From: Amycolatopsis granulosa
GTDB lineage: Bacteria; Actinomycetota; Actinomycetes; Mycobacteriales; Pseudonocardiaceae
DNA: 64,000 nt
NCBI RefSeq assembly: GCF_011758745.1
Contig: NZ_JAANOV010000001.1
Coordinates: forward strand, 4,216,001 to 4,280,000
Direction: 5' to 3'
The notes under the pieces were generated by a model, which saw only the letters and a program-made list of their open reading frames with translations, did no database searches and had not been told where the DNA came from. Position numbers and translations under genes: made by a program. Positions 1 to 49,336 of this stretch are shown one piece after another. Position 1 is the stretch's first letter. Each line of letters begins with the position of its first letter.

Positions 1-18
1 AGCTTAGCCGAACCTAAG
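1..18. promoter_or_regulatory. Possible IdeR/DtxR iron box cut by the window edge
   Basis: The first bases read AGCTTAGCCGAACCTAA. The last 14 differ from the matching part of the IdeR/DtxR consensus (TTAGGCTAACCTAA) at two positions, and the left end of the box lies outside the window. It is about 90 bp upstream of the PHP-domain gene but could equally serve a divergent gene to the left. The complete box at 47300-47318 makes a chance match less likely. Confidence 0.35.
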
Positions 19-2390: not shown

Positions 2391-3902
2391 TCATCCGCGC
2401 AACGTGGCACGGACCGCGTCGATCGTGTCCGCCTCCCCGGGGTCCTTGTCCGGGCGGTACCGCACCACGCGCGCGAACCGCAGTGCGACGCCACCCGGAT
2501 AGCGGGTGCTCACCTGCGCACCGTCCAATTCGATCTCGACGACCAGCTCCGGCCGGACGTACACCGTCCACCGGTCGCGGTGGGACTCGATCTCCTGGAA
2601 CACCCTGGTCTGCCACGCCAGGAGCTCGTCGGTCAGCCCCTTGAACGTCTTGCCCACCATGATCGGCGGCCCGCCGTCCGGGTCCCGGGCACCGAGGTGC
2701 AGGTTCGACAGGTAACCGGTGCGGCGGCCGTGGCCCCACTCGGCGGCGAGGACGACGAGGTCGAGCGTGTGCACCGGCTTCACCTTCAGCCACGCCCGGC
2801 CCCGCCGCCCCGCCGCGTACGGCGATTCGAGCGCTTTCACCATCACACCCTCGTGCCCGGCATCGAGGGCGGCCGCCAGGATCGCGTCCGGATCGGACGG
2901 TTCGGACCGGCCGGGGATGAGGTGCTCGCCGGCCACCCGGCGCAGCGCCTCGTTGCGGTCCCGCAACGGCTTGTCCAGCAGGTCCGTGCCGTCCAGGTGC
3001 AGGCAGTCGAAGAAGTACGGCCGCAGCAGCAACGCGCGCACCTGCTCCTCGCGCGTGCTGCCGAACCGGCTCATCGTCTCCTGGAACGGCCGGGGCCTGC
3101 CGTCATCGGCCAGCGCGAGCGTCTCGCCGTCGAGCACCACCGACCGGCACGGCAGTGCGCGCACCAGCGACACCAGCTCGCCGACGTGCTGGGTGATCTC
3201 CCGCAGTGTTCTCGTGTAGACGTGCACCTCGTCGCCGTCGCGGTGCACCTGTATCCGCGCTCCGTCCATCTTGTACTCGACGATGGCGGACGGGTGCTCG
3301 CGCACCGCCTCGCCGAGTGATTCCGCCGGGGACGCCAGCATCGGCCGCAGCGGACGCCCCAGCTCGAGCCCGAACCGCCCGAGCGCGGCCTCGCCACCGG
3401 TGACCGCGGCCAGCGCGGTGACCGGCAGCCGCCCGGACAGCATGAACGCGCGCCGGACCGCCTCGGCCGGCACGTTCGCGGCGGCGGCGATGCCGTCCAG
3501 CATCACGCCCTCCAGCGCTCCCTGCCGCAGCTCCCCGGTGAGCAGGCGGAACAGGAACTGCTGTTCGGCCTCGGTGGCGCGGGTGAACAGCTCCGCCAGC
3601 AGACGGGCCCGGCGCCGGGCCGATCCGCTGCCGGAAGCGGCACCCACCTCACCGAGGACCGCGTCGACCTCGGCCACCGTGAGGTTCGCGGTGTCAGCCG
3701 GGCTCGCGCCCAGCTCGGCCAGCGTGCGCCACCCCGTCCCGATCCGGCCCTGGGTGGGCCGTCCGGTCAGGAACGCCACGACGGCTGGCAGCTCCCGCTC
3801 ATCCGCGCGGTTGAGCAGGTCCGCCAGCGTCGTGATCTTCGCCTTGCGTGAGCGGGTGGCCGCTAGCGCGGCGGAGGCGGTGACGACGTCGGCGAGGAAC
3901 AT
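2391..3902 (-). CDS. ligB: ATP-dependent DNA ligase LigB
   Basis: 503 aa from the ATG at 3902 (MFLADVVTAS), which matches the start and length (about 507 aa) of mycobacterial LigB; the reading frame is open for 24 more codons upstream. An N-terminal DNA-binding domain (about 1-180) precedes the nucleotidyltransferase core: motif I is EYKMDGARIQ with the AMP-accepting Lys at 211, followed by VVLDGE, HEGVMVKA and the WLKVKPVHTLDLVVLAAEWG block. A C-terminal OB fold ends in VVRYRPDKDPGEADTIDA. It joins nicks using ATP, beside the NAD-dependent LigA that bacteria need, and is usually dispensable. Its start lies 40 bp inside the end of the upstream transporter gene, so the two are probably co-transcribed. 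Confidence 0.93.
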   Translation of the reverse strand: MFLADVVTASAALAATRSRKAKITTLADLLNRADERELPAVVAFLTGRPTQGRIGTGWRTLAELGASPADTANLTVAEVDAVLGEVGAASGSGSARRRARLLAELFTRATEAEQQFLFRLLTGELRQGALEGVMLDGIAAAANVPAEAVRRAFMLSGRLPVTALAAVTGGEAALGRFGLELGRPLRPMLASPAESLGEAVREHPSAIVEYKMDGARIQVHRDGDEVHVYTRTLREITQHVGELVSLVRALPCRSVVLDGETLALADDGRPRPFQETMSRFGSTREEQVRALLLRPYFFDCLHLDGTDLLDKPLRDRNEALRRVAGEHLIPGRSEPSDPDAILAAALDAGHEGVMVKALESPYAAGRRGRAWLKVKPVHTLDLVVLAAEWGHGRRTGYLSNLHLGARDPDGGPPIMVGKTFKGLTDELLAWQTRVFQEIESHRDRWTVYVRPELVVEIELDGAQVSTRYPGGVALRFARVVRYRPDKDPGEADTIDAVRATLRG

Positions 3903-4792
3903 GCCGACATCATCTCCCGGTCCACCGACAATTTCCGCGGACGGCGCAGGACCACCACCACTGCCGCCAGGCACACCACCAGGCCGAGCAGACCACGCGG
4001 CGTGATCGTGTCACCGAACATGATCCAGGCGAGCACCATCGTCGTCGGCGGGGTGAGGTACAGCAGGGTGGACACGGTGGTCACCGAGCTACGCCGGAGC
4101 ACCAGCCAATAGCAGCCGTATCCCCCGAACGTGGAAAACAGCACGACCCACCCGATCGCGACCCAGAATTCCGGGACCGGCGGCGGGGTCAGCCGGCCGG
4201 TCGCGGCCGCGATGCCGGTGAACAGCACGGCGCTCGTGACGCACTGCACGACGAGACCGTCCATCAGGGGCACGTCCGGCGCCGTGCGGCGTTCGAGGAA
4301 AGTGGCGGCCACCAGGGCCAGCATCGCCAGGAACGGCAACCCGTAGGCCAGTGCCGGGGTGCCCGGGCGTCCCGAGAGGTCGCCGCCCACCACCAGTGCG
4401 ACCCCGGCGAGCCCCGCCACCAGGCCCGCCCATCGCCGCACCCCGGCTCGTTCCCCGAGCACGAACTGCCCGAGCACCACCGCGGCGATCGGCTGCAGCG
4501 CGGCGATCAACGCCGTCGTGCCTGGCGGCACACCGAGATCCGCCGCCGCGTACGTGAAGTACAGGTACGCACCCTGGGAGAGCACGCCGAGACCGACGTG
4601 GACCGCGACGTCGCGTGGCCGCATCGAGCGCCGCCGGACCAGCCACCACGCCCCGAGCAGCAGGCCCACCACGATGAACCGCCAGGCGAGCAGGGTCACC
4701 GGACCGCTGGACCGGGCACCCAGCGTCGCGCCCACGAACCCCGAGCTCCAGAACAGGACGAACCCGGCTCCGGGGATGACGTTCCGGCCCAT
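3863..4792 (-). CDS. EamA/DMT-family transporter
   Basis: 309 aa with about ten predicted membrane helices in two EamA repeats, the usual architecture of drug/metabolite transporters that export amino acids or other small molecules. The N-terminal GFVLFWSSGFVGATLGARSSGP and the ...TTALIAALQPIAAVVLGQF... segments are typical. A strong ribosome-binding site (GGGAGGAG, complement of 4799-4806) precedes the ATG. It is divergent from a TetR gene over a perfect palindrome, so it is probably that regulator's main target. The last 13 codons (SACSSPTSSPPPPR) overlap the start of ligB by 40 bp. The substrate is unknown. Confidence 0.88.
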   Translation of the reverse strand: MGRNVIPGAGFVLFWSSGFVGATLGARSSGPVTLLAWRFIVVGLLLGAWWLVRRRSMRPRDVAVHVGLGVLSQGAYLYFTYAAADLGVPPGTTALIAALQPIAAVVLGQFVLGERAGVRRWAGLVAGLAGVALVVGGDLSGRPGTPALAYGLPFLAMLALVAATFLERRTAPDVPLMDGLVVQCVTSAVLFTGIAAATGRLTPPPVPEFWVAIGWVVLFSTFGGYGCYWLVLRRSSVTTVSTLLYLTPPTTMVLAWIMFGDTITPRGLLGLVVCLAAVVVVLRRPRKLSVDREMMSACSSPTSSPPPPR

Positions 4793-4817
4793 ACGGTCTC
4801 CTCCCAGGTATACAGAT

Positions 4818-4842
4818 CGGTATAGCTACCGTAGCTATACCG
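4818..4842. promoter_or_regulatory. 25-bp palindromic operator between EamA and TetR genes
   Basis: Two 12-nt arms (CGGTATAGCTAC and its exact complement) flank one central C at 4830. The palindrome sits 25 bp from the transporter start and 19 bp from the preferred TetR start. TANNNT-like boxes on both strands (TACCGT, TACGGT) fall at its centre, so a bound dimer would block both promoters. Confidence 0.8.
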
Positions 4843-4861
4843 GTGGGTGTACTGTCAAGCC

Positions 4862-5443
4862 GTGGAGACGAAGAAGCCGCTGACCCCAGCCGCCGAACGG
4901 ATCCTCACGGTCGCCGAGGAACTGTTCTACGCCAACGGGATCCACGCGATCGGCGTCGACACGATCGCCGCCGAGGCGGGGGTCACGAAGAAGACCCTCT
5001 ACGACCGGTTCGGGTCGAAGGCCGAACTGGTCGCGCTCTACCTGCGCCGCCGGGACGAGCGGTGGCGGGAATGGGTGCACGGGTACGCGGACCCGCGCTC
5101 GGCACCGCAGCGCCGCCTCCTGCGCGTGTTCGACGCCCTCGCCGACTGGATGCGCATGGCGAACGCGCGCGGTTGCGCGTTCGTGAACGCGCACGCCGAG
5201 CTGCCCGCGGCCGACCATCCGGCGCAGCAGGTGATCGCGGCCTCCAAGGAGTGGCTGCTGGACTACCTGCGGCAGCTCGCGGCCGAGGCCGGGGCGCGCA
5301 ACCCGGCACGACTGGCGGAGGCGTTGCTGATCCTGATCGAGGGAGCCACGGTGGTGGCTTCGCTGGACGTGCTGCCGACGGCGGTGGCGGCGGCGAAGCG
5401 GGTGGCGAAGTCGCTGATCGACGAGGCGACCGCGGCGCGCTGA
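4862..5443 (+). CDS. TetR-family transcriptional regulator
   Basis: 193 aa from GTG 4862 (VETKKPLTPA); an in-frame GTG at 4847 would add five residues and crowd the operator. The N-terminal HTH is textbook TetR: ILTVAEELFYANGIHAIGVDTIAAEAGVTKKTLYDRF in shortened form reads FYANGI, TIAAEAGVTKKTLY, RFGSK. The C-terminal half is an alpha-helical ligand domain. Its divergent placement over the 4818-4842 palindrome implies that it represses itself and the neighbouring DMT transporter, with a transported compound as a plausible inducer. The ligand is not deducible. Confidence 0.9.
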   Translation: METKKPLTPAAERILTVAEELFYANGIHAIGVDTIAAEAGVTKKTLYDRFGSKAELVALYLRRRDERWREWVHGYADPRSAPQRRLLRVFDALADWMRMANARGCAFVNAHAELPAADHPAQQVIAASKEWLLDYLRQLAAEAGARNPARLAEALLILIEGATVVASLDVLPTAVAAAKRVAKSLIDEATAAR

Positions 5444-5544
5444 CCGGTGGACCAGCCGATCCCGGCCAGGCGGACGGGACGTGCGGTGCTGGTCACCGGG
5501 ATGGCTCTTGCCCCGGCCCGCCGGCGAACCGTACGGTGATCGAG

Positions 5545-5690
5545 CCGTGGTGCTCGGGAAGTCCGGTGAAAAACCGGCGCGGCCCTCGCCACTGTGAACG
5601 GGAAGTCCCGGCCCGGGACAGCCACTGGACGCGAGTCCGGGAAGGCGGGCCGCGGATGTCGATCCGGAGCCAGGAGACCGGCCACGGCGC
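5545..5690 (+). ncRNA. Cobalamin (B12) riboswitch
   Basis: The conserved core is visible in order: GGGAAGTCCGGTGAAAAACC at 5556-5575, GCCACTGTGAACGGGAAG, then AGCCACTG, GTCCGGGAAGG and the B12 box GAGCCAGGAGACCGGCC at 5667-5683. It lies 37 nt upstream of the Ni/Co permease start on the same strand. Adenosylcobalamin binding is expected to switch off the permease when B12 is plentiful. Confidence 0.95.
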
Positions 5691-5726
5691 GAAGGACCAT
5701 CCACGAGGTGCTGGAAGGCGGTCTCC

Positions 5727-6797
5727 ATGGGGACTTCACGCGCGCTGTCCTGGCGTCGGCAGGACACCTACCGAACCGGTCTGCTGCTGCTGGCGATCGT
5801 CGCTGTGCACGTGGTCGCGTTCGGGATCCTCGCGCTGCTCGTCGTGCCCGGCCACTACACGGTCGGCACGCAGGTGTTCGGTTTCGGGCTGGGCATGACC
5901 GCCTACACACTCGGCATGCGGCACGCGTTCGACGCCGACCACATCGCCGCCATCGACAACACCACCCGCAAGCTGATGGCCGAGGGCAAGCGCCCGGTGT
6001 CGGTCGGGTTCTGGTTCGCCCTCGGGCACTCCACGGTGGTCGTCGTGCTGGCCGTGCTGGTCGCGGTCGGCGCGAAGGGGGTTCTGAGCTGGACCGAGGA
6101 GGGCTCCTCGGCCCACCGGGTGCTGGGCTTGGTGTCCACCGGCGCCTCCGGCGGCTTCCTCTACCTGATCGGCGTGCTGAACCTGATCGCGCTGGCCGGT
6201 ATCGCCAAGGTGTGGCGCGAGCTGCGCCGCGGCCGGTTCGACGAGGCCGAGCTGGAGGCCCGGCTCGACTCGCGCGGGTTCGTCAACCGCTTCCTCGGCA
6301 GGCTCACCCGCTCGATCCGCCGTCCGGGTCAGATGTACCTGGTCGGGCTGCTGTTCGGCGTCGGGTTCGACACCGCGACCGAGGTGCTGCTGCTGGCGCT
6401 GGCCGGGTCCGGTGCGGCGGCCGGCCTGCCGTGGTACGCCGTCCTGTGCCTGCCCCTGCTGTTCGCCGCCGGGATGAGCCTGTTCGACACGCTCGACGGC
6501 ACGTTCATGAACTTCGCCTACGACTGGGCCTTCGCCAGTCCGGTGCGCAAGATCTACTACAACCTCGTCATCACCGGGCTGTCCGTCGCGGTGGCATTGA
6601 TCATCGGCACGATCGAGCTGGTCGGTGTCGCGCGGGACGACCTGGGCTGGTCCGGTGCGCTGATCGAGTGGATCGCGGACCTGGACCTGGACAACGTCGG
6701 CTACATCGTCGCCGGGTTGTTCGTCGTGGTGTGGGCGGTGGCGCTCGCGTACTGGCGGCTGGCCCGCGTCGAGCACCGCTGGAGCTCAGCCCAGTGA
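5727..6797 (+). CDS. NiCoT-family nickel/cobalt permease under B12 control
   Basis: 356 aa, about eight membrane helices. The NiCoT signature in helix II is present as RHAFDADHIAAIDN (metal-binding His/Asp), followed by LGHSTVVV, LFGVGFDTATE and GMSLFDTLDG. Such permeases import Ni(II) or Co(II) across the cytoplasmic membrane. The cobalamin riboswitch directly upstream argues that the physiological cargo is cobalt for B12 synthesis. The ATG at 5727 lies a suitable distance after GGAAGGCGG. The last 12 bp overlap the convergent sigC end. Confidence 0.93.
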   Translation: MGTSRALSWRRQDTYRTGLLLLAIVAVHVVAFGILALLVVPGHYTVGTQVFGFGLGMTAYTLGMRHAFDADHIAAIDNTTRKLMAEGKRPVSVGFWFALGHSTVVVVLAVLVAVGAKGVLSWTEEGSSAHRVLGLVSTGASGGFLYLIGVLNLIALAGIAKVWRELRRGRFDEAELEARLDSRGFVNRFLGRLTRSIRRPGQMYLVGLLFGVGFDTATEVLLLALAGSGAAAGLPWYAVLCLPLLFAAGMSLFDTLDGTFMNFAYDWAFASPVRKIYYNLVITGLSVAVALIIGTIELVGVARDDLGWSGALIEWIADLDLDNVGYIVAGLFVVVWAVALAYWRLARVEHRWSSAQ

Positions 6798-45552: not shown

Positions 45553-46518
45553 TCAGGTACCCGCGCCGATCAGCCGCATCGCCGAGCTCAGCCGGTGCTC
45601 ACCCCGCTCGGCGGCGCGGGCCGCGCCCGCCTTGCGGATCCGCGTCAGCTCGCCCGGGTCGTCCAGCAGCTCCACCGTGCGTTCCCGGACCGGGCGCAGC
45701 TCCTCGATCACCGCCTCGGCCACGGCTTCCTTGAGCGCGCCGTAGCTGGAGAACTCCGCCGCCAGGTCGGCGGGCCGGCCGCCACGGCAACCGGCCAGGA
45801 TCTCCAGCAGGTTGGCCACCCCCGGGCGTTCCCCGGGCGCGTACTCGACGCCGGTGAACCCGTCCGTCACGGCGCGCCGCACCTTGCGCCGGATCAGGTC
45901 GGGCTCGTCCAGCACGAACACCACGCCCGCCGCGTCCGCAGCCGACTTCGACATCTTGCTCGCCGGGTCGCCGAGGTCCCGCACCCGTGCCCCGGCTGGT
46001 GGCAGCACCGCGCGTGGCACCGTGAACACCTCGCCGTAGGTCCCGTTGAACCGGCGGGCCAGCGCCCGCGCCAGCTCGACGTGCTGGTTCTGGTCCTCGC
46101 CCACCGGAACCTCCGCCGCGCCCTGCAGCAGGATGTCCGCCGCCATCAGCACCGGGTAGGTGAGCAGGCTCAGCCGCACGCCCGGCTGCCCGCTGCCCTT
46201 CTCCTTGAACTGGATCATCCGCGCGGCCTCGCCGTAGCTGCAGGTGCACTCCAGGATCCAGGTCAGCGCGCCCAGCTCGCGGGACAGGTCCGACTGCACG
46301 AACAACCGCTCGGCCGGGATACCGGACGCGACCAGGATCGCGAGCATCTCGCTGGTGCGCGCCCGCAGCCTGGCCGGGTTGTGGGTGGTCGTCATCGCGT
46401 GCAGGTCGGATACGAAGTACAGGTCGTCCGGTCCGCCGCCGGACGCCCAGCGCTGCACGGCACCCAGGTAGTTGCCGAGGTGGGTGTGGCCGGACGGGGT
46501 GATCCCGGAGAGTCGCAT
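45553..46518 (-). CDS. trpS: Tryptophanyl-tRNA synthetase
   Basis: 321 aa from ATG 46518 with GAGGAA upstream. Class I signatures are PSGHTHLGNYLGA (HIGH) near residue 8 and KMSKS near 190; LYFVSDLHAMTT, MAADILLQGAAEVPVGEDQNQH in part, and LTRIRKAGAARAA complete the family pattern. It charges tRNA-Trp. A Trp-Trp leader peptide and hairpin upstream indicate that its expression responds to Trp-tRNA supply. Confidence 0.95.
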   Translation of the reverse strand: MRLSGITPSGHTHLGNYLGAVQRWASGGGPDDLYFVSDLHAMTTTHNPARLRARTSEMLAILVASGIPAERLFVQSDLSRELGALTWILECTCSYGEAARMIQFKEKGSGQPGVRLSLLTYPVLMAADILLQGAAEVPVGEDQNQHVELARALARRFNGTYGEVFTVPRAVLPPAGARVRDLGDPASKMSKSAADAAGVVFVLDEPDLIRRKVRRAVTDGFTGVEYAPGERPGVANLLEILAGCRGGRPADLAAEFSSYGALKEAVAEAVIEELRPVRERTVELLDDPGELTRIRKAGAARAAERGEHRLSSAMRLIGAGT

Positions 46519-46564
46519 CGAGGGTTCCTCAGGTCGGTGACCGCCCCGCCCGGACCCCGGAACC

Positions 46565-46594
46565 GCCGAAGGCCGCCTGCGCGGGCGGCCTTCG
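46565..46594 (-). terminator. Attenuator hairpin in the trpS leader
   Basis: CCGAAGGCCGCC pairs with GGCGGCCTTCGG around a 6-nt loop, between the leader peptide stop and the trpS start. GGCCGCC next to the Trp codons (minus strand, about 46641-46635) can compete for the same GGCGGCC. Confidence 0.75.
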
Positions 46595-46607
46595 GGTTGG
46601 CTGATCT

Positions 46608-46667
46608 TCAGCGCACGTCGGAGGGACCGCCTGCCGGCGGCCACCACGAGCTCACGTTCGTGCGCAT
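46608..46667 (-). CDS. trpS leader peptide with tandem Trp codons
   Basis: A 19-codon frame, MRTNVSSWWPPAGGPSDVR, starts at ATG 46667 and stops 41 nt before the hairpin's far end. Two adjacent TGG codons in so short a peptide, placed before a stable hairpin and a Trp-tRNA synthetase gene, are the mark of ribosome-mediated attenuation. TACCCT (46679-46674, minus) ends 7 nt before the ATG, so the peptide is probably translated from a leaderless transcript. Confidence 0.8.
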   Translation of the reverse strand: MRTNVSSWWPPAGGPSDVR

Positions 46668-46673
46668 GCGGTC

Positions 46674-46679
46674 AGGGTA
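46674..46679 (-). promoter_or_regulatory. -10 box of the trpS leader transcript
   Basis: TACCCT on the minus strand, 7 nt before the leader ATG. Confidence 0.6.
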
Positions 46680-46802
46680 GCAGCGCCCGGGAGTAAGCTC
46701 ACCATTGCACTTCGAAAAGCCATTCTTTGGAATGTGGTACCGGTGTTGCACAAGTTACCGAAAAGCCGGCGGGAAAGATTTCCCGGGGGTCGTTTTCGGG
46801 TC

Positions 46803-46808
46803 TACCGT
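46803..46808 (+). promoter_or_regulatory. -10 box of the YciI gene
   Basis: TACCGT ends 7 nt before ATG 46815. Confidence 0.5.
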
Positions 46809-46814
46809 GGAGTT

Positions 46815-47114
46815 ATGTTCATCGTGCTGATCGACTACACGGCTCCGGTGGAAGAAGTCGACTACCTCCTCGCTGACCACGCGAAATGGCTGGATCGCCA
46901 CTTCGGCGCGGGCGAGTTCCTGGCCGCCGGGCGGCGCGCCCCGCACTCCGGGTGCGTCATCGTGACCAGGCCGATGCCCCAGGTGAAACTGGAGGCGATT
47001 CTCGCCGCGAACCCGATCGTGCAGCGGCGTCTGGCGCAGTTCCGGATCATCGAATTTAACGCCACCCGGACCGCGCCGGAGCTCCGTCTGGTGAACGAGG
47101 CCCTGGTCGTCTAG
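46815..47114 (+). CDS. YciI-family protein
   Basis: 99 aa from ATG 46815 (MFIVLIDYTAPVEEVDYLL). The YciI ferredoxin-like fold is visible in HAKWLDRHFGAGEFLAAGRR (the invariant His/Asp region), SGCVIVTRP and the C-terminal NPIVQRRLAQFRIIEFN. Family members are small cytoplasmic proteins with a conserved His-Asp pair; some act as dehydrochlorinases or muconolactone-type isomerases, most are uncharacterised. The stop shares CTAG with the convergent small gene. Confidence 0.88.
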   Translation: MFIVLIDYTAPVEEVDYLLADHAKWLDRHFGAGEFLAAGRRAPHSGCVIVTRPMPQVKLEAILAANPIVQRRLAQFRIIEFNATRTAPELRLVNEALVV

Positions 47115-47269
47115 GCGGCTGCCTTCCCCAGGTCCGCCTTCGCCCGCTGGAGTGCGAGAACCGGGCACTTCTTGCAGCGCGGCCGCGAGCGGCAGCACTT
47201 CTTCTTGACCTTGCCGGCCTTCATGAGCTTGCGGACGACCTTGCGCGGGTCCGCGGTCTTCTTGCCCAC
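47111..47269 (-). CDS. 52-aa Cys/Lys-rich protein under an iron box
   Basis: GTG 47269 opens a 52-codon frame with GGAG upstream (complement of about 47275-47278). A basic N-terminus (ADPRKVVRKLMKAGKVK) leads to KKKCCRSRPRCKKCP with C25, C26, C32 and C35, a likely Zn or Fe-S site, then a short helix. Codon third positions are almost all G/C and the stop overlaps YciI by 3 bp. Such Lys/Cys-rich microproteins are conserved in actinomycetes as far as I recall, without assigned function. An IdeR/DtxR-type box covers its -10 region, so it should be expressed when iron is scarce. Confidence 0.75.
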   Translation of the reverse strand: MGKKTADPRKVVRKLMKAGKVKKKCCRSRPRCKKCPVLALQRAKADLGKAAA

Positions 47270-47299
47270 ACGCCACTCCACATGTCGGGGGTCGTCCCC

Positions 47300-47318
47300 T
47301 TAGGTTAGGTGAACCTAA
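47300..47318. promoter_or_regulatory. IdeR/DtxR iron box
   Basis: TTAGGTTAGGTGAACCTAA matches 17 of 19 positions of the consensus TTAGGTTAGGCTAACCTAA, differing only in the two central bases. On the minus strand it contains TAACCT (47307-47302), the probable -10 of the 52-aa gene 33 bp downstream. It is 114 bp from typA. Confidence 0.88.
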
Positions 47319-47359
47319 GTGTTCTCCCACCGTGGGCCTGGTCACAGCGGGGCACCAGG

Positions 47360-47365
47360 TATCCT
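47360..47365 (+). promoter_or_regulatory. -10 box of typA
   Basis: TATCCT fits TANNNT and would give a 5' leader of about 60 nt before GTG 47432. Confidence 0.45.
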
Positions 47366-47431
47366 GAACGGGATCGCGTATGCCACAGCGGGCCCGCGAT
47401 TCATCCCTTCGAAATGTTCAGGAGCCCTCGC

Positions 47432-49336
<1,905 letters not shown>

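Follow-up and report, generated by a model that had tools for sequence, protein, structure and literature searches.

The described systems that come closest to the locus examined here are the Bfd protein, which serves the heme bacterioferritins, and FhuF. Bfd is required in P. aeruginosa to mobilise the iron of BfrB (PMC7760384), and bfd may be expressed differently from bfr despite the adjacency of the two genes (PMC7762939). The bfd gene of M. tuberculosis is located divergently to bfrA and is regulated by IdeR (PMC5218490), which in this species acts as a repressor where a gene has one box overlapping its promoter, but activates bfrB from four tandem boxes (PMC9132128). The E. coli FhuF protein is a protein of iron starvation with [2Fe-2S] ligands in the arrangement C-C-x10-C-x2-C (PMC8068687). 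Going by the parts of three papers drawn on here, the return of iron from heme-free ferritins is much less clear than that from the heme bacterioferritins served by Bfd (PMC7760384, PMC5218490, PMC7762939).

The window, which is the whole stretch of 64,000 nucleotides from Amycolatopsis granulosa that was analysed, contains a gene for a basic, cysteine-bearing microprotein that is preceded by an iron box of the IdeR/DtxR type. The box was scored against TTAGGTTAGGCTAACCTAA, which we take to be the IdeR/DtxR consensus. The features of the locus are as follows:

46815..47114, plus strand: YciI-like gene, convergent neighbour (Pfam YCII, 1.7e-06), not part of the system
47111..47269, minus strand: 52-codon microprotein gene, from the open reading frame and its translation, the homologues and their starts, and a summed pN/pS of 0.25 for its codons in 9 chosen comparisons with relatives
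47276..47279, minus strand: GGAG, probable Shine-Dalgarno sequence read from the sequence, 6 nt before the start codon
47300..47318, minus strand: IdeR/DtxR box TTAGGTTAGGTGAACCTAA, identical to the consensus at 17 of 19 positions (2 mismatches) and conserved before homologues
47302..47307, minus strand: TAACCT within the box, probable -10 element of the microprotein gene
47432..49336, plus strand: typA/bipA, divergent neighbour outside the system (Pfam GTP_EFTU, BipA_C and others)

The microprotein gene starts with the GTG codon at positions 47269 to 47267 and ends with the stop codon at positions 47113 to 47111. An alternative in-frame GTG codon located upstream, at 47281, would give 56 codons, but the start at 47269 is favoured by the N-termini of the homologues, which read V/M/L-G-K or V/M-S-K, and by the GGAG motif ahead of it. 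Judging from the codon comparisons and the homologues, the 52-codon gene is a real gene, and its codons are under purifying selection. The protein has a core of the form K-K-K-C-C-x5-C-x2-C-P, and 19 of its 52 residues are Lys or Arg, compared with 2 Asp, which bears out the claim of the initial annotation that a CCx5CxxC motif is located in a strongly basic protein of 52 amino acids. Lys-rich tails were identified in several genera, and the predicted microproteins of genus g17 are only about 30 to 40 residues in length, with little beyond the core and a basic tail. The CC-bearing rows of the alignments (A1 to A3) were chosen by a regular expression, and the apparent invariance of the cysteines is partly due to this choice; one match in the same family (L255) contained CR in place of CC, and the six g5 loci contained CCx6CxxC instead of CCx5CxxC.

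Profile and sequence searches gave no Pfam, NCBIfam or PDB family that covered the microprotein, and the search of the PDB with profile A1 gave no match to a solved structure, the best E-value being 0.42. No copies were identified on plasmids or phages at E-values up to 0.01, and no structured RNA in Rfam was matched within positions 46400 to 47600. A likeness to FeoC in 2 of 19 members (E 0.035) was judged to be due to chance.

The box sits 30 nt upstream of the microprotein gene. The 19-bp IdeR/DtxR-like box claimed by the initial annotation was recovered as one of 7 places in the 5.62-Mb genome with at most 3 mismatches, corresponding to 6 forward and 6 reverse matches, while the reversed pattern gave 0 matches in the whole genome at the same threshold. 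Two proteins of the DtxR family (Fe_dep_repr_C) that scored above the cut-off are encoded in the genome, and either could be IdeR. The neighbours were inspected at five of the six other places, the sixth being genome position 4650169. A FecCD permease gene with a divergent gene for a periplasmic binding protein was located at one box (L001), and genes for a DUF2470 protein (L002), a FecCD permease (L004) and a FhuF_C protein (L006) were located near three others, all of which fit a use of iron or heme. A box with 2 mismatches (L003, genome positions 3939940 to 3939958) was located near an arylamine N-acetyltransferase gene, and no evident iron gene was identified alongside it. It was also noted that a second box with 2 mismatches straddles the left edge of the window (window positions 1 to 17, genome positions 4215999 to 4216017) and adjoins a FecCD permease gene located mostly outside the window.

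The TAACCT hexamer has the form TAnnnT, and from the sequence it is plausible that the box overlaps the -10 element of the microprotein promoter. In several relatives, belonging to several families, the start codon abuts, closely follows or overlaps the box, which fits a leaderless mRNA with the -10 element inside the box. When 73 distinct sites were aligned with the box as anchor, the core AGG...CCT stood out from nearly flat flanks and no conserved -35 element was seen, the columns having been built from the best-matching stretches, which inflates their information content. Just upstream of the box, at positions 47331 to 47346 on the minus strand, we noted a Crp/GlxR-like dyad, TGTGACCAGGCCCACG, which may serve either typA or the microprotein. 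The pattern GTGNNC-N4/5-CCAC occurred in the 60 nt preceding the box at 27 of the 73 distinct family sites, compared with 0.8 expected from shuffles.

Of 200 genomes from the same family, 142 gave the microprotein in a single-sequence search, and all of the 142 loci were read; the counts ignore the relatedness of the genomes. The CCx5CxxC motif was present in 135 loci, and a box within 5 mismatches preceded the gene in 112 of these. Such a box occurred in 1 of 1,350 first-order shuffles and in none of the 135 regions when they were reversed. The best site in the 135 loci had 2 mismatches in 13 loci, 3 in 32, 4 in 46, 5 in 21 and 6 in 9, with a weaker end at 7 (2 loci), 8 (3), 9 (5) and 10 (4) mismatches. 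At least one box within 5 mismatches was found in 31 of the 33 genera with the motif, and the 23 loci with more than 5 mismatches included all of the g36 and g46 loci and 3 of the 4 g25 loci. The g5 loci, with their longer spacing, contained a box with 4 mismatches in 5 cases and one with 7 mismatches in the sixth, and the CR variant L255 contained a box with 6 mismatches. Conservation of the box before orthologues, a check that the initial annotation had set beforehand, was thus observed both in the CCx5CxxC loci and in g5, and control of the microprotein by the iron box is strongly supported by these comparisons.

Two Saccharopolyspora species (L115 and L116) contained the microprotein gene with a box within 4 mismatches, and Saccharopolyspora erythraea presumably belongs to the same GTDB-style family as the window genome. 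A study of IdeR in that species predicted 37 sites (23 clusters), including bacterioferritins and "ferredoxins", and typA is absent from its main text, as far as the parts drawn on here extend (PMC8464063). The Saccharopolyspora site may already stand among the predicted IdeR targets in Table S2 of that study (PMC8464063).

The box is located between divergent genes. The typA gene was divergent to the microprotein gene in 130 of the 142 family loci, including 123 of the 135 CCx5CxxC loci and 7 of the 7 others, and the YciI-like gene adjoined many of the homologues. The twelve family loci in which typA was missing from the fetched stretch included all nine of the g42 loci, and a box within 5 mismatches was present in 9 of 9 of these loci with typA not alongside. 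As a general feature, the typA neighbourhood proposed by the initial annotation did not hold, since the nine g42 loci as well as loci in other families have kept the gene without typA. Conversely, typA was found in all of the 25 family genomes for which the earlier searches had given no copy of the microprotein. Three of these (L170 to L172) contained a diverged microprotein after all, with a box of 4 or 5 mismatches. The other 22 are those with listed handles among a total of 58 misses in the 200 genomes. A broader profile identified the microprotein in 0 of these 22 genomes, and in 21 of them the best site in the 1,500 nt before typA had 7 or more mismatches; in the gene-less genome L159, a box with 5 mismatches preceded typA. 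Because the box has been lost together with the microprotein gene and retained in the absence of typA, we conclude from the comparative sequence data that the box belongs to the microprotein and that typA is incidental; the idea that the box acts on typA was rejected on the same grounds. In one g42 locus (L335, positions 3956 to 6477), the microprotein gene was divergent from a gene for a lipoprotein. This lipoprotein resembles the substrate-binding protein whose gene follows typA in the window, and the arrangement looks like the outcome of a loss of typA from between the two genes.

Profile matches were found in 102 of 298 genomes of the order and in 14 of 396 of the phylum. A broader profile gave 29 of 396 phylum genomes at E-values up to 0.01, with the CC motif only in the better matches, and 76 of 394 genomes for the class at E-values up to 1e-5; two borderline phylum matches beyond the CC-bearing loci were left out. 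The carriers include Amycolatopsis, Actinokineospora, Saccharopolyspora, Saccharothrix, Prauserella, Microlunatus and Corynebacterium. Boxes in the other families were counted within 6 mismatches and in the 200 nt upstream only. Outside the family of the window genome and family f8, such a box was present in 40 of 69 loci, compared with 2 of 1,380 shuffles. The loci with a box were distributed over f16 (17 of 18), f21 (9 of 16), f105 (3 of 14), f20 and f4 (2 of 3 each), f2 (2 of 2), f56 (2 of 4), f35 (1 of 2), f3 and f121 (1 of 1 each), and none were found in f22, f48 and f104 (0 of 1 each) or f99 (0 of 2). In f8, a box was present within 6 mismatches in 2 of 16 loci and within 5 mismatches in 0 of 16 (200 nt), so that this family has kept the protein largely without the box; the gene was located beside typA in 13 of its 16 loci. 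The typA gene was not located beside the microprotein gene in f16, f21, f20, f105 and the other loci examined. Furthermore, a locus in Microlunatus speluncae (L099, about positions 2868 to 3135) contained a microprotein copy of Pseudonocardiaceae type that has a box of 4 mismatches and was possibly transferred as a unit of box plus gene, and neither typA nor ferritin was detected in this 6-kb locus.

The strongest functional clue, which was absent from the initial annotation, is the ferritin neighbourhood in other families. A gene for a non-heme, BfrB-like ferritin was located beside the microprotein gene in 34 of the 69 loci outside the own family and f8. These loci belong to six families: f16 (18 of the 18 loci examined, with 27 f16 matches in the order-level profile search), f21 (10 of 16), f2 (2 of 2), f56 (2 of 4), f20 (1 of 3) and f48 (1 of 1). 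The divergent neighbours in f16 (G347) and f2 (G276) were identified as proteins of the Pfam family Ferritin. The two genes were divergent in 26 of the 34 loci, followed each other on the same strand with the microprotein gene first and ferritin directly after it in 6 (five in f21 and one in f20) and with the ferritin gene first in 1, and were convergent in 1; loci within one family are not independent, and L441 and L442 are near copies. The variation in orientation across families argues for a functional tie rather than a single inherited neighbourhood. No ferritin gene was located beside the microprotein gene in the own family (0 of 142 loci), in f8 (0 of 16), f105 (0 of 14), f4 (0 of 3), f35 and f99 (0 of 2 each) or in the single loci of f3, f22, f121 and f104.

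Within the own family, ferritin was present in 37 of the 37 tested genomes that contained the microprotein, and the 5 of 59 family genomes that lacked ferritin all lacked the microprotein. Ferritin was kept in 17 of the 22 genomes without the microprotein, and the tie is therefore one-sided, in that ferritin does not need the microprotein. Taken as a comparative result, the link to ferritin is well supported.

The ferritin of the window genome is close to BfrB of M. tuberculosis (1.5e-54) and is encoded elsewhere in the genome, where its gene is preceded by two box-like sites about 35 nt apart, one with 4 mismatches and the other with 5. The other match to the Ferritin family in this genome is Dps. 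No free-standing Bfd was found in the window genome, in which every match to the Bfd domain lay within a large protein, in one case at the C-terminus of a 492-residue oxidoreductase reading frame. In the six same-strand loci with the microprotein gene first, the ferritin gene is located downstream of the same box, and it would thus be iron-repressed as well unless it has a promoter of its own. In L451 and L453, the same-strand pair was preceded by two box-like sites 20 nt apart, in the stretch between 90 and 50 nt before the CC codons, and these loci may differ in regulation from those with a single box.

The best reading of the sequence data is that the microprotein has a metal-binding role and is a member of the IdeR regulon, and to this extent the interpretation in the initial annotation is supported. 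As to what the protein does, we propose, at about even chances of being correct, that it is an iron-repressed protein with four cysteines, probably of the [2Fe-2S] type, that acts as a partner of non-heme ferritin in a role like that of Bfd with an unrelated sequence. The proposal is made by analogy with the Bfd precedent, in which a tiny [2Fe-2S] protein of iron starvation can be needed for the release of stored iron. When iron is plentiful, IdeR-Fe2+ bound to the box would block the microprotein promoter, and under iron starvation the microprotein would be made. Its four cysteines would bind a redox cluster, for which the [2Fe-2S] type found in FhuF is the most likely, and its basic chain would dock on ferritin, to which it may pass electrons or from which it may take iron, so that stored Fe3+ would be released as Fe2+. 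The type of cluster, the docking on ferritin and the release of iron are what we infer from these precedents, and the CCx5CxxC motif could instead hold zinc. Given the two box-like sites before the separately located ferritin gene of the window genome, a single regulator could there act in opposite directions on the storage protein and the release protein. More tentatively, and with somewhat less than an even chance, the proposal may extend to an actinobacterial family of IdeR-repressed microproteins with about 30 to 100 residues and four cysteines, which would serve non-heme ferritin as its own reductant or as a partner dedicated to iron release.

Several other explanations were weighed against a partnership with ferritin. 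A zinc- or iron-binding microprotein might bind nucleic acids or the ribosome during iron starvation, for example by adjusting translation beside TypA, and such a role would draw on the very basic chain with its Lys-rich tails in several genera, on the divergent typA gene in the 130 family loci and 13 f8 loci, and on an N-terminal helix that is faintly like ribosomal protein L19e (non-significant, E 0.42 to 0.55; 0.051). We regard it as unlikely, with typA absent beside the gene in g42, f16, f21, f20, f105 and others, where ferritin is often found, and with no RNA- or ribosome-binding family matched significantly; for the ribosome or RNA binding suggested by the initial annotation, nothing was found in support beyond the high charge. 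The microprotein might also be a chaperone or buffer for iron or Fe-S clusters that delivers iron from siderophore, haem or ferritin to Fe-S assembly rather than serving as a reductant. Control by the box is common to siderophore transport and FhuF_C genes, and the four conserved cysteines and the ferritin neighbourhood would fit an iron carrier as well, but no Suf/Isc or siderophore neighbours were identified in twelve longer stretches with partly identified reading frames, and we consider this role unlikely as well.

A regulator or assembly factor on the side of ferritin, in the form of a zinc-stabilised peptide acting on ferritin pores or on ferritin mRNA or DNA to limit iron loading during starvation, would be consistent with a ferritin neighbourhood that is both divergent and on the same strand, with a basic charge that would seek pores or acid patches, and with the co-expression of both genes expected from the same-strand order. 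Nothing specific speaks against it beyond the vicinal CC pair, which matches the Fe-S precedent; in our view it is improbable. A conserved vicinal pair of cysteines is unusual for structural zinc. Finally, the position of the box between divergent genes could mean that it serves typA, or that it is a chance match, with the small gene as a bystander. This explanation is hardly credible, being already contradicted by the comparative data on co-loss of the box with the microprotein, its retention without typA and the shuffle controls, and by the shorter distance from the box to the microprotein gene, with a median of 34 nt from the end of the box to the start of the gene versus 118 nt from the start of typA to the box in 84 loci.

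The microprotein family appears to be undescribed in the libraries and literature searched. The core peptide strings were absent from the paper texts searched, and a literature search, with supplements outside its scope, identified no IdeR-controlled small protein or ferritin-associated partner like the microprotein. The response to iron starvation hereby gains a protein family that lacks annotation and has what may be a minimal Fe-S motif; its members may help cells to withdraw stored iron under scarcity. With a conserved iron-box microprotein repeatedly located beside a heme-free ferritin, the question of how iron is returned from such ferritins becomes directly testable in actinomycetes that are harmless laboratory strains.

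In comparison with known systems, the microprotein resembles the Fe-S loop of MutY/EndoIII in its local letters and in a weak, non-significant match to the NCBIfam mutY model (E 0.075). It differs from this loop in that a cysteine pair replaces the usual fourth cysteine, and membership was rejected with a score of 12.6 bits compared with a cut-off of 286.5 and with no glycosylase domain. With FhuF_C (PF11575) it shares the vicinal Cys-Cys followed by CxxC, but the spacing is x5 (x6 in g5) rather than x10 and the microprotein is free-standing; membership was likewise rejected, with no match to PF11575 in 19 members at E-values up to 10. Like Bfd (PF04324, Fer2_BFD), the microprotein is a small protein with four cysteines and a predicted expression in iron starvation, and its gene is located beside an iron-storage gene in a part of the family (34 of 69 loci in other families, 0 of 142 in its own). 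It differs in the CCx5CxxC spacing and the strongly basic chain, and in that its neighbour is a non-heme BfrB-like ferritin rather than a heme bacterioferritin. Membership in the Bfd family was ruled out, as PF04324 was matched in 0 of 19 members at E-values up to 10. If the proposed role is correct, the problem solved by Bfd would have a further and unrelated solution in the microprotein, which would rely on CCx5CxxC as a minimal cluster motif, be even smaller than Bfd and act on a ferritin without heme.
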